64,000 nucleotides of DNA from Haloarcula marina. GTDB lineage: Archaea; Halobacteriota; Halobacteria; Halobacteriales; Haloarculaceae. The stretch is from NCBI RefSeq assembly GCF_024218775.1, contig NZ_CP100404.1, positions 1,364,001 through 1,428,000 on the forward strand. Direction: 5' to 3'. The position numbers and the translations under genes are program-made. Below are positions 18,728-24,586 of the stretch, piece by piece (within the stretch, counting starts at the first letter, position 1; the number at the start of each line of letters is the position of its first letter). The notes below the pieces were generated by a model, which searched no databases, was not told the DNA's origin, and saw nothing but the letters and a program-made list of their open reading frames with translations.

Positions 18728-19297
18728 TCAGTCGTCCCCGGTCTCGTCGACGATGACGACTTCGCCGTCTTCGACGGTGACGTTGATGAGGGTCTTCGCG
18801 TCGTAACCCGCCTCGTCGAGTTTGTTGACGCCGTCGGCCTTCTTGATGACGCAGACGATGTCACAGATGTCCGCGCCGATGTCTTCGAGCGCGCCGGTCA
18901 GGGCGGCGAGGGTGCCGCCGGTCGAGAGCACGTCGTCGAGGACGAGGACGCGGTCGCCCTCGTACACGTCGTTGACGTACATCTCGTTCTCGGAGTAGCC
19001 GGTGACCTGCGAGAGCGCGACTTCGCCGTCGAGGCCGTACTGGCGCTTGCGGACGACGACCAGCGGGATGTCGGTCATCAGGGAGACGGCCGTCGAGAGG
19101 TGGATGCCCATCGCCGCGGGCGTGACGATTTTGTCGACGTTTTCGAGTTCCGCCTTGCGGATGATTTTGATGACGATTTCCCGGAGGAGTTCCGGGCGGA
19201 GCATGGGGACGCCGTCGCTGATGGGGTGGACGAAGTAGTGATAGCCGTCTTTCTCGATAATCGGCGCGTCCAACAGCGACTGCTTGAGTCGGTCCAT
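18728..19297 (-). CDS. hpt: hypoxanthine/guanine phosphoribosyltransferase family protein
   Basis: 189 residues of the type I phosphoribosyltransferase fold. The PRPP-binding motif [17 protein letters not shown] is near residues 117-133. [10 protein letters not shown] precedes it, and the [15 protein letters not shown] start is that of archaeal HGPRTases (Apt/Hpt group). The enzyme joins purine bases to PRPP in purine salvage. An A/T-rich box lies about 27 bases before the ATG. Base specificity cannot be fixed by reading; haloarchaeal relatives have been called both hypoxanthine- and adenine-type. Confidence 0.9.
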
Positions 19298-21786: not shown

Positions 21787-22275
21787 TTACGCCTGCGGTC
21801 CGGAGTCCTGCGCGAGGGTTGCGGAGTTGTCTCCCTCGGGCGGTTCGTAGATGATACGGACTTCGTAGTCATTGCTCAGGGATGCGGTAATACTTGAACC
21901 GGCCGAGACATCCGTCGTCCCTTCTGCATCGTTCCAGGTTTGGGTTTCGTTACCGTCAGCTAAGTAGACTCTTGGTCCGCTTGCTTGGGCAGAAACCCAC
22001 CCATCTCCACGGATGTACAGACTGTTACCTTGGATGGTATCGCCACCGTCGTGGGTGACGGACAGAACGCCGTTACTCGCACTGTAACCCGTTGCATCTC
22101 CGTCGTAGTCGAACGCGAAACTGGCCTGCGGAGTCGTCTGCTGTGCTTGGTCGCCGAGTCCGAGGACGAACGACGCGATAACGGCGGCGAGGATGACGGT
22201 GATAGCCACCATCAGGATGACCCCGATAACCGGCGAGACAGCGTCGTCGTCGTGGATGAGTTGTTTCAAATCCAT
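21787..22275 (-). CDS. type IV pilin-like protein A
   Basis: 162 residues. A short basic/acidic leader (MDLKQLIHDDDA) precedes the conserved pilin core VSPVIGVILMVAITVILAA, the haloarchaeal PilA-type N-terminus cut by the PibD/archaeal prepilin peptidase before the hydrophobic helix. The exposed domain is beta-rich and acidic (FAFDYDGDATG, TVSVTHDGGDTI-like repeats), with a conserved SVTHDGGDTIQG block shared with pilins B and C. The six upstream in-frame codons are ignored because MDLK is the family start. It is preceded by a promoter with an inverted repeat and about 100 bases of leader. Confidence 0.85.
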   Translation of the reverse strand: MDLKQLIHDDDAVSPVIGVILMVAITVILAAVIASFVLGLGDQAQQTTPQASFAFDYDGDATGYSASNGVLSVTHDGGDTIQGNSLYIRGDGWVSAQASGPRVYLADGNETQTWNDAEGTTDVSAGSSITASLSNDYEVRIIYEPPEGDNSATLAQDSGPQA

Positions 22276-22394
22276 TGTTGTGTCCATATGCACACCGCAT
22301 GTCGGTCCTTACGAGCGATAACCCGATCCTACTCCCACCACACGGTTCGGTGTTGCTCGTAGAGGTGTGCTGATTCGTTCTCATGACGGCGGCT

Positions 22395-22439
22395 GACTTA
22401 TACCCACACCACGTTTTAGCGCTTCAACGGCGGCTTGAA
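22395..22439 (-). promoter_or_regulatory. pilin A promoter with inverted-repeat operator
   Basis: On the minus strand, TTCAA-N7-TTGAA (22423-22439) lies just upstream of a TATA box GGTATAAGT (22396-22404). The same 45-base arrangement, with identical spacing, lies upstream of pilin B. Transcription would start near 22372, leaving a leader of about 100 nt before the ATG. The intergenic region runs from 22276 to 22541 and shows no gene. Confidence 0.65.
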
Positions 22440-22541
22440 CGGCTTCAGGAGCTGTCTAATCTCGATATTCACGCCTGTTCAGCGAATCAAAGTGGTGGGT
22501 GGCGGATTTCGATTATCAGACGTGATTCTCGGACGGTGCAA

Positions 22542-23123
22542 TTAGTCATCGTCGTCGTACTGACGGGTCATGTACTCCGTGAGCGTCATCTCGCGGCCGA
22601 GGAACGTGTGGTACAGCGCCGACCCGGTCAGGACGACGGCCATCACCGTCGCCCAGACGAGCGGCGGGATGAGGGTGAAGGGGTAGACGCCGACCCACAG
22701 GACGACGACGACGGCGAGACTGACCGCGCCGAAAGAGAGGTAGTACTCCCGCCACGGGAACTCGCTTCCGGGGACGATTTCCAGGTAGACCGTCAACTCC
22801 TCGGTCTGCGGCGTCGTCGCGATAACGCCAGCGTCGGCGTCGTAGTCCACGATACCTGTCTCGTCCATCCGCGGCAGGTGTGTCTGTTGCAGCGTCGTGT
22901 AGACGCGCTTGCGTTGGGTGCTCGACACCTCGCCCTCGGGGCAGTCGTACTCCAGCGAGGCGACGTGGTCGGCGAGGTCGCCGAGGTCAACGGGACCGCC
23001 GTTCTCCCGGAGGTACTGGAGCGTGTAGCGCCGCCGCTCGTTCTGCAACACGTCGAAAATCTCGCCTTTCGAGAGCGCGTCCTCTGCTGGCGTGACGGAC
23101 GGGCGCTCGGTCTGCTGACTCAC
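22542..23123 (-). CDS. DUF7344 domain protein: HTH-like regulator with two membrane helices
   Basis: 193 residues from a GTG start. Residues 18-110 match the haloarchaeal DUF7344 domain, a winged-helix-like fold (KGEIFDVLQNERRRYTLQYL at 19-38; RVYTTLQQTHLPRMDETGIV further on). Residues 130-180 contain two membrane helices, and the tail ends in DDDD. Domains of this type are widespread beside haloarchaeal pilin and surface genes and are suspected DNA-binding regulators. It lies between pilin genes B and A, making it the best local candidate for sensing or controlling them. A TATA-like GGTTATTACC is about 70 bases upstream. Confidence 0.75.
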   Translation of the reverse strand: MSQQTERPSVTPAEDALSKGEIFDVLQNERRRYTLQYLRENGGPVDLGDLADHVASLEYDCPEGEVSSTQRKRVYTTLQQTHLPRMDETGIVDYDADAGVIATTPQTEELTVYLEIVPGSEFPWREYYLSFGAVSLAVVVVLWVGVYPFTLIPPLVWATVMAVVLTGSALYHTFLGREMTLTEYMTRQYDDDD

Positions 23124-23210
23124 GATTCGGTCTCACCCCGACACGCGATACCGAGCACCGGCATGTGTCCTACATCTGTGAGTCGATGGTAATAACCACA
23201 GCGGTCCGGG

Positions 23211-23226
23211 TGAAAGCGAAAAATGA
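23211..23226 (-). terminator. T-rich terminator after pilin B
   Basis: The minus strand reads CTCATTTTTCGCTTTC immediately after the pilin B stop, a T-rich tract typical of archaeal termination. Confidence 0.4.
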
Positions 23227-23236
23227 GTCGACGACC

Positions 23237-23719
23237 TTACGCGTCAGGCCCGTTCCACTCGCCGAGAGTGGCCGAAGTGCCGTCGGCGTTGTAGACGACG
23301 CGGACCGTCGCCGGACTCAGGTCGAGGTTACCACTGCCACTGGTGAAGTCACCCGTGGCGTCGATGGTTTCAGACGTCCCCGCACTGACATCGGTCACGC
23401 TATCGAAAGTGGAGCCGTCGTAACTTCCAATATCGCTTCCTGCTTCGTTTTGAGCCCCCGAGACGACGATGTTGAGGTCCTCGGATCGGATGGTGTCACC
23501 CCCGTCGTGGACGATAGTTAGGGAGTCGTCGCCCCCACTGTTGTCTTCGAAGTCGAAACTGAAGCTCGCTTGCGGTGCGGTGTTGCTCAGGTTGTCGCCG
23601 AGTCCGAGAACGAACGTGGCGATGACGGCAGCGAGGATGACAGTGATAGCCACCATCAGGATGACCCCGATAACCGGCGAGACAGCGTCGTCGTCGTGAA
23701 TGAGTCGTTTCAGATCCAT
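23237..23719 (-). CDS. type IV pilin-like protein B
   Basis: 160 residues. The leader MDLKRLIHDDDA is followed by the invariant pilin helix starting VSPVIGVILMV, then a globular domain with the FSFDFED, TIVHDGGDTIRSEDLNIVVSG and DSVTDVSAGTSETID blocks. The first 100 and last 30 residues are nearly identical to pilin C, while a short central stretch differs. The ending LDLSPATVRVVYNADG is shared with C. Its own promoter carries the same inverted repeat as pilin A. Probably a subunit of an adhesion pilus; the assembly ATPase and PilC are not in the window. Confidence 0.85.
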   Translation of the reverse strand: MDLKRLIHDDDAVSPVIGVILMVAITVILAAVIATFVLGLGDNLSNTAPQASFSFDFEDNSGGDDSLTIVHDGGDTIRSEDLNIVVSGAQNEAGSDIGSYDGSTFDSVTDVSAGTSETIDATGDFTSGSGNLDLSPATVRVVYNADGTSATLGEWNGPDA

Positions 23720-23833
23720 GGTTGTATCTACACACCGTGGGCTGAATAGGCGAGCCGTTAATCGGAACCTACTCCGGCTTGGTGGGGTAGGTCGCTCGCA
23801 GTGGTGTGCTGAGTCGTCTACAGACGGTCGGGT

Positions 23834-23878
23834 GACTTATACCCACACTACGCTTTAGCAGTTCAATCCAGGCTTGAA
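23834..23878 (-). promoter_or_regulatory. pilin B promoter with inverted-repeat operator
   Basis: TTCAA-N7-TTGAA at 23862-23878 lies upstream of the TATA box GGTATAAGT (23835-23843) on the minus strand. Most bases between the two elements match the pilin A promoter, and the spacing is the same (25 bases between fixed points), although the seven central bases of the repeat differ. Confidence 0.65.
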
Positions 23879-24097: not shown

Positions 24098-24586
24098 TTA
24101 CGCGTCAGGTCCGTCCCACTCGCCGAGAGTGGCAGAAGTGCCGTCGGCGTTGTAGACGACGCGGACCGTCGCCGGACTCAGGTCGAGGTCCACTGAGCTA
24201 ATGGCCGAGAACTGACTTTCGTCGTCGATAGTCTCCGACGTTCCCGCACTCACGTCGGTAACGCTATCGAATGTGCTGCCAGTGTACGTCCCGGCATCAG
24301 TATCTGAACCCTCCACATTTGCACCGGAGACGACGATGTTCAGGTCTTCGGACCGAATCGTGTCACCACCGTCGTGGACGATAGTCAGCGAATCGTCGCC
24401 GCTGGCGTCGTTCTCGAAGTCGAAGGAGAAACTGGCCTGCGGCGCGGTGTTGCTGACCTGGTCACCCAGGCCGAGGACGAACGTGGCGATGACGGCGGCG
24501 AGGATGACGGTGATGGCCACCATCAGGATGACCCCGATGACCGGTGACACCGCATCGTCGTCGTCGAAGAAACGTTTGAGTTCCAT
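24098..24586 (-). CDS. type IV pilin-like protein C
   Basis: 162 residues. The leader MELKRFFDDDDA precedes the pilin core helix. The globular domain is a close copy of pilin B (FSFDFEN, HDGGDTIRSEDLNIVVSG, SVTDVSAGTSETID, LDLSPATVRVVYNADG), with a different middle segment after VVSG and before LDLSPA. Its upstream region lacks the TTCAA repeat; instead a strong A/T box (TATTTATG, 24684-24691 on the minus strand) lies about 100 bases before the ATG. It stands downstream of the Mrp antiporter operon but has its own promoter. Confidence 0.85.
   Translation of the reverse strand: MELKRFFDDDDAVSPVIGVILMVAITVILAAVIATFVLGLGDQVSNTAPQASFSFDFENDASGDDSLTIVHDGGDTIRSEDLNIVVSGANVEGSDTDAGTYTGSTFDSVTDVSAGTSETIDDESQFSAISSVDLDLSPATVRVVYNADGTSATLGEWDGPDA

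Follow-up and report, generated by a model that had tools for sequence, protein, structure and literature searches.

By architecture, and not by sequence comparison, the closest functional parallel to the site described here is ArnR of Sulfolobus. ArnR and ArnR1 of Sulfolobus acidocaldarius are membrane-bound one-component regulators with an N-terminal helix-turn-helix and activate the archaellum and pili; binding needs both members of a pair of inverted repeats that lie between -43 and -84 at the archaellum promoter, ahead of the core promoter of a type-IV-pilus-like gene (PMC6396743). Archaeal Lrp activators occupy dimer sites just upstream of the promoter, two or three turns apart, and in the operators of Ptr2, LysM and Ss-LrpB promoter-proximal dimer sites whole helical turns apart serve activation (PMC2995911). 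In Haloferax volcanii the surface-structure regulator CsmR binds a semi-palindrome adjoining the TATA box, TATCA-N4-TGATA, at targets which include archaellum, chemotaxis and cell-shape genes (PMC13286277). The winged-helix protein EarA of Methanococcus maripaludis activates a type-IV-pilus-like operon from upstream of the archaellum (fla) promoter (PMC5512572; PMC6396743, PMC13286277), and the promoter of the protease gene sptA of Natrinema sp. J7-2 contains GAAAT-N7-ATTTC and other repeats (PMC6085418). In the literature searched, the adhesion pilins of haloarchaea are assigned neither a transcriptional regulator of their own nor an operator.

Here, we analysed a pilin locus within a window of 64 kb of Haloarcula DNA (the whole stretch examined), in which two of three pilin genes are preceded by the dyad TTCAA-N7-TTGAA and a protein of the DUF7344 family is encoded between pilins. 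The candidate regulator resembles ArnR in its N-terminal winged helix, and the dyads, like the ArnR boxes, are inverted repeats ahead of the core promoter in type-IV-pilus-like genes. The ArnR box itself (TCGAC-N5-GTCGA, from a different phylum) is another site than the pilin dyad, and of the two systems ArnR is the one for which binding has been demonstrated. The dyads form a ladder like that of the Lrp operators, but Pfam does not place the candidate reader among the Lrp/AsnC proteins. The pilin dyad differs from the CsmR site in both sequence and spacing. EarA has several binding sites of its own and serves the archaellum, not pilins, and for sptA no array in helical register is described, unlike the pilin dyads.

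Results

Dyads upstream of pilins A and B

Pilins A and B are each preceded by an exact inverted repeat, TTCAAGCCGCCGTTGAA (TTCAA-GCCGCCG-TTGAA) and TTCAAGCCTGGATTGAA (TTCAA-GCCTGGA-TTGAA), respectively (Table 1), as a sequence-only reading of this DNA had reported. That reading described the repeat as followed by 20 bases and then GGTATAAGT; the spacing is indeed identical for the two genes, but the 20 bases lead to TATAAG and 18 to GGTATAAGT. The intervening bases, said to be largely conserved, do contain a block kept between repeat and TATA box, TAAAACGT for A and TAAAGCGT for B. The seven bases inside the repeat, said to differ, do so at four positions, while the other three (GCC) are common to A and B. 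TTCAA-N7-TTGAA is absent upstream of pilin C, again as described. A second dyad 21 bp further upstream is weak for pilin A and absent for pilin B.

With up to one mismatch allowed, the two dyads are the sole sites in the window (0.16 expected), and none of 100 shuffles of the window yielded two. Whole-genome scans, performed by pattern and by region, returned six exact copies of TTCAA-N7-TTGAA and no match to the reversed control; the four copies besides the pilin A and B dyads are covered by open reading frames and have no TATA box in register. An Rfam search of the pilin locus gave nothing above the gathering score.

Table 1. Coordinates of the features of the pilin locus in the window.
Feature	Position	Strand	Remark
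Operator dyad, pilin A (putative)	22423..22439	-	same register in 27 A-type promoters
Weak upstream half-site CTGAA, pilin A	22444..22448	-	where other Haloarcula have a well-formed second dyad, 21 bp up
Conserved element TAAAACGT (consensus TRAAACGT), pilin A	22411..22418	-	16 bases before TATA box; T, A, A, G, T invariant in 27 promoters
TATA box TATAAG, pilin A	22397..22402	-	sequence and promoter alignment
Predicted 5' leader, pilin A mRNA	22276..22373	-	start inferred from TATA box
Complementary leader ends, pilin A	GCACACC 22364-22370, GGTGTGC 22290-22296	-	
Pilin A, type IV pilin	21787..22275	-	Pilin_N, PF07790
DUF7344 protein, candidate dyad reader	22542..23123	-	PF24035; winged-helix model; synteny
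Operator dyad, pilin B (putative)	23862..23878	-	ends 20 bases before TATA box
Element TAAAGCGT, pilin B, TRAAACGT equivalent	23850..23857	-	promoter alignment
TATA box TATAAG, pilin B	23836..23841	-	sequence and promoter alignment
Predicted 5' leader, pilin B mRNA	23720..23812	-	start inferred
Basal leader helix, pilin B	GCACACC 23803-23809 with GGTGTGT 23730-23736	-	
Pilin B: A-type promoter, leader and N-terminus with C-type body	23237..23719	-	identity pattern
Pilin C: dyad absent, own promoter, own hairpin leader	24098..24586	-	
hpt-like gene	18728-19297		still in window

Conservation and helical register

Pilin genes were searched in 32 Haloarcula genomes and 40 loci were fetched, in which the order C-type pilin, DUF7344 gene, A-type pilin recurs. 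The exact repeat lies within 330 bases upstream of roughly 30 of the 76 Haloarcula pilin genes. The promoters of 27 A-type genes, two of them from a sister genus, align without gaps across 70 bases as CTTGAA-N4-TTCAA-N7-TTGAA-N4-TRAAACGT-N8-TATAAG, with four of five letters invariant in the TTGAA arm, and three invariant and a fourth nearly so in the TTCAA arm. Several genomes contain a second dyad 21 bp up, composed of TTCAA, TACAA or TCCAA, N7, and TTGAA or a near variant. When 113 Haloarcula pilin upstream regions were grouped by shared words into 57 clusters and one region was drawn per cluster, TTCAA-N7-TTGAA occurred 15.5 times per draw compared to 0.02 in dinucleotide shuffles, the clusters being not fully independent because some A-type clusters remain distant relatives. 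The next commonest arrangements were those expected of dyads repeating at 20-21 bp.

Outside Haloarcula, 68 clusters contained 9 dyads with up to one mismatch (0.41 in shuffled sequences), and among spacings of 2 to 7 only N7 stood out, with 9 versus 3 at N3 and 0 at the others. Four related genera have weaker dyads before pilins, placed in the same register: the sister genus (g4) has kept the gene order, with a double dyad in degenerate form at 20 and 41, and the pilins of g87, g11 and g15 have dyads at 28-31, 20/41 and 50-51.

Between the A-type dyads and the TATA box there are 20 bases, and the dyads of stand-alone pilins with near-leaderless promoters end 30-31, 50-52 and 71-72 bases before it. 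Dyads are often doubled with a period of ~21 bp, and several stand-alone pilins carry two or three rungs. Since these distances differ in this manner, the dyads lie on one face of the helix (phase concentration R ~0.95; Rayleigh P ~2e-5 with the A-type promoters collapsed to one point and a few exact dyads at 100-247 bases from the TATA box left out). We read this ladder as the signature of proteins placed on one helix face relative to the basal complex. The site is two-fold symmetric with conserved sequence and spacing, as in a dimeric operator, and its position relative to the TATA box is constrained in unrelated promoters of one regulon. At one locus (L209 6573) two divergent pilin genes have one dyad between them, 50 bases from the TATA box of the first and 100 from that of the second.

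In A-type promoters the element TRAAACGT matches the dyad in its degree of conservation; it also occurs near the TATA boxes of some stand-alone pilins and is possibly a second control element. Pilin C orthologues have no dyad in every Haloarcula examined, with the exception of an MNPKQLL-type gene of two genomes, which fits the earlier suggestion that pilin C is under separate control. C-type promoters in many Haloarcula contain their own conserved block, ~TTACAG..TCTGATAATACAGGTGCAGACTTATATA, upstream of the TATA box (e.g. L040, L043, L046), as would be expected if pilin C had a regulator of its own.

Specificity for pilin genes

The sequence-only reading had staked its proposal on conservation of the repeat before orthologous pilins and on its not being scattered widely away from promoters, and both points held. 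Among 391 Halobacteria genomes of 86 genera, the pattern dyad-N14..24-TATAAG gave 16 matches in 15 genomes, every one in Haloarcula, at the pilin locus and with a 20-base gap, compared to zero for the control pattern. A pattern with a 31-base gap had three matches in 292 genomes, all before Haloarcula pilins. The register is kept before orthologous and non-orthologous pilins. The 32 Haloarcula genomes contain 91 exact sites versus 38 for the reversed control, at least about 35 of the 91 being linked to pilins. Exact dyads away from pilins had a TATA box in register in 0 of 30 cases and were nearly all inside reading frames. A repeat scattered over the genome is ruled out, the copies elsewhere not being at promoters. 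Across all GTDB genomes, dyad-N20-TATAAGT was found in 111 stretches, mostly of AT-rich bacteria as chance predicts, and six of these loci, including those of named Haloarcula and Halomicroarcula species, also encode a DUF7344 orthologue. From this distribution we take the dyad to be a control site of Haloarcula and close relatives that serves pilin genes almost exclusively.

The DUF7344 protein

The helix-turn-helix protein that had been noted at this locus matches PF24035 (DUF7344) with 105.2 bits against a curated cut-off of 27.8; this is its sole Pfam match, the AsnC/RAM ligand domain being absent. Its N-terminal domain was modelled as a winged helix (pLDDT ~84-89) resembling RosR, MarR and ArsR-type regulators with Z about 9-10. 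The C-terminal part has hydrophobic stretches in the alignment, to which the model assigns low-confidence helices (125-145 and 154-189), and these segments are probably membrane-spanning. A comparison with PDB sequences returned nothing relevant, and DUF7344 was not mentioned in the papers searched. The family is present in nearly all Halobacteria genomes searched.

A close orthologue was found in 29 of the 32 Haloarcula genomes; elsewhere in the family sample it occurs in g4, g11, g87 and g15. The gene lies between the two pilins in the fetched Haloarcula A-loci (25 loci with the gene) and inside the pilin locus in the other four genera as well. Among the Haloarculaceae genomes other than Haloarcula, a ladder dyad preceded at least one pilin in 10 of the 11 with a DUF7344 orthologue versus 1 of the 22 without (shuffled expectation ~0.1 for each group; Fisher P 1e-6, phylogeny ignored), with the ladder positions fixed after the Haloarcula data and some outgroup loci had been seen. 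The co-occurrence across genera may be a single event in one clade. Synteny and co-occurrence, both correlational, support the proposed link between DUF7344 and the dyads, but two observations do not: no DUF7344 gene lies within about 6 kb of the dyad-bearing stand-alone pilins, and in families f3 and f7 the orthologue, 53-62% identical, is encoded away from pilins, with no dyads in 16 pilin upstream regions from a partial sample of six genomes. Differences in the recognition helix are not supported as the source of specificity, because this region is nearly identical whether or not the orthologue is linked to pilins, and paralogues have a similar one.

Leader RNA and chimeric pilins

In A-type genes the start predicted from the TATA box falls within a few bases of GCACACC, and its complement, GGUGUGC, is found some 10-20 bases ahead of the start codon. 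Folding predicted a helix between the 5' end and the stretch preceding the AUG in 55 of 60 leader clusters of the family, compared to 23.7 expected from shuffles (mean z -2.0); the calculation relied on a single energy model, on inferred starts and on a permissive criterion for closing. The inner helices vary among A, B and their relatives while pairing is kept, and RNAalifold on the plain leader alignment found the basal helix alone. The whole leaders of long-leader pilin mRNAs are predicted hairpins which begin at the 5' end and close just before the start codon.

Pilin B looks chimeric, because upstream it is 63% identical to A, over 181 bases, and 48% identical to C, whereas its body is 78% identical to C and 54% to A. 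In the Haloarcula genome G007 (locus L060) a C-type promoter and start are joined to an A-like body, which is the reverse counterpart of the pilin B event. This genome has neither the DUF7344 gene nor dyads, and we do not count it as an independent loss since the fused pilin suggests that one deletion removed both.

Discussion

The recurrence, register and pilin specificity of TTCAA-N7-TTGAA indicate that it is almost certainly a real transcription operator. The site of a dimeric regulator, as proposed in the sequence-only reading, is still its best interpretation given the conserved register, and the doubling at ~21 bp and the helical phasing extend that proposal. The best overall explanation, to which we assign a probability of roughly 0.6, is a pilin-dedicated, dimeric, activating regulator with DUF7344 as the best candidate. 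Such a regulator would bind TTCAA-N7-TTGAA as a dimer, and where a second dyad lies ~21 bp up, two dimers could sit side by side on one helix face and cooperate. From 20 or 30-31 bp before the TATA box it would most likely help TBP/TFB assemble, and we hold activation to be probable. The reader would be the locus's own DUF7344 protein, a winged helix with hydrophobic segments that probably cross the membrane; such a protein could tie pilin transcription to a membrane event, and on the genomic evidence we lean slightly towards this assignment.

The principal competitor is an unlinked regulator, e.g. of the Lrp/AsnC type, with DUF7344 being a neighbour in another role. We regard this as possible yet doubtful: two-turn spacing of dimer sites is known for archaeal Lrp proteins (PMC2995911), the haloarchaeal CsmR acts from a TATA-adjoining semi-palindrome at many scattered targets (PMC13286277), and both the stand-alone dyad pilins and the f3/f7 orthologues fit it, but DUF7344 is found inside the dyad-bearing pilin locus in five genera, the dyads outside Haloarcula track the presence of its orthologue, and the CsmR site is a different one. 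It is unlikely that the dyads bind a repressor which keeps the pilin genes off. Although the direction of effect is not readable from sequence and some haloarchaeal promoters have repressor sites at or beside the BRE (discussed in PMC6085418), at the loci examined the dyads are clear of the TATA box and start site and stay in helical phase from 20 to 72 bp upstream; because they do not overlap TATA box or start and keep this phase, contact with TBP/TFB suits them better than occlusion.

Two further explanations concern the history of the genes. Recombination sites moving promoter-leader cassettes between pilin genes would account for chimeric pilins such as pilin B and the fused pilin of G007, but the pilin B junction is in or near the conserved start of the pilin coding region, where ordinary homologous recombination suffices, and helical phasing with the TATA box is unexpected of a recombination site, which makes this explanation very improbable. 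That the repeat merely survives from the recent duplication giving rise to pilins A and B has hardly any credibility left: their promoters and leaders are indeed common by descent, as the identity over 181 bases indicates, but dyad, spacing and phasing recur before pilins whose upstream regions are otherwise unlike, across five genera and many genomes, and the recurrence in non-redundant clusters and in other genera rules such an artefact out.

No earlier report of the dyad was found in the literature searched, most subscription journals being outside its scope. We regard the dyad as a new operator, of a general kind already known, and as probably marking a new regulon of that kind. An operator of fixed register found across the genus makes pilin regulation testable in Haloarcula, some species of which can be cultured, suggests a first concrete role for the large DUF7344 winged-helix family and may provide a euryarchaeal parallel to ArnR. 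More tentatively, Haloarculaceae might possess a two-layer pilin switch, in which a membrane-tethered DUF7344 activator on the dyad ladder is combined with a long-leader hairpin mRNA and cassettes are exchanged by recombination at the pilin start. If so, the DUF7344 family would include membrane-anchored transcription factors, a haloarchaeal analogue of ArnR.

In families f3 and f7 the DUF7344 orthologue lies between coaBC-like and hpt-like genes, or beside hpt, and pilins are absent there (L235-L253). Since the window still has an hpt-like gene (Table 1), pilins probably joined this older coaBC-DUF7344-hpt neighbourhood in Haloarculaceae.
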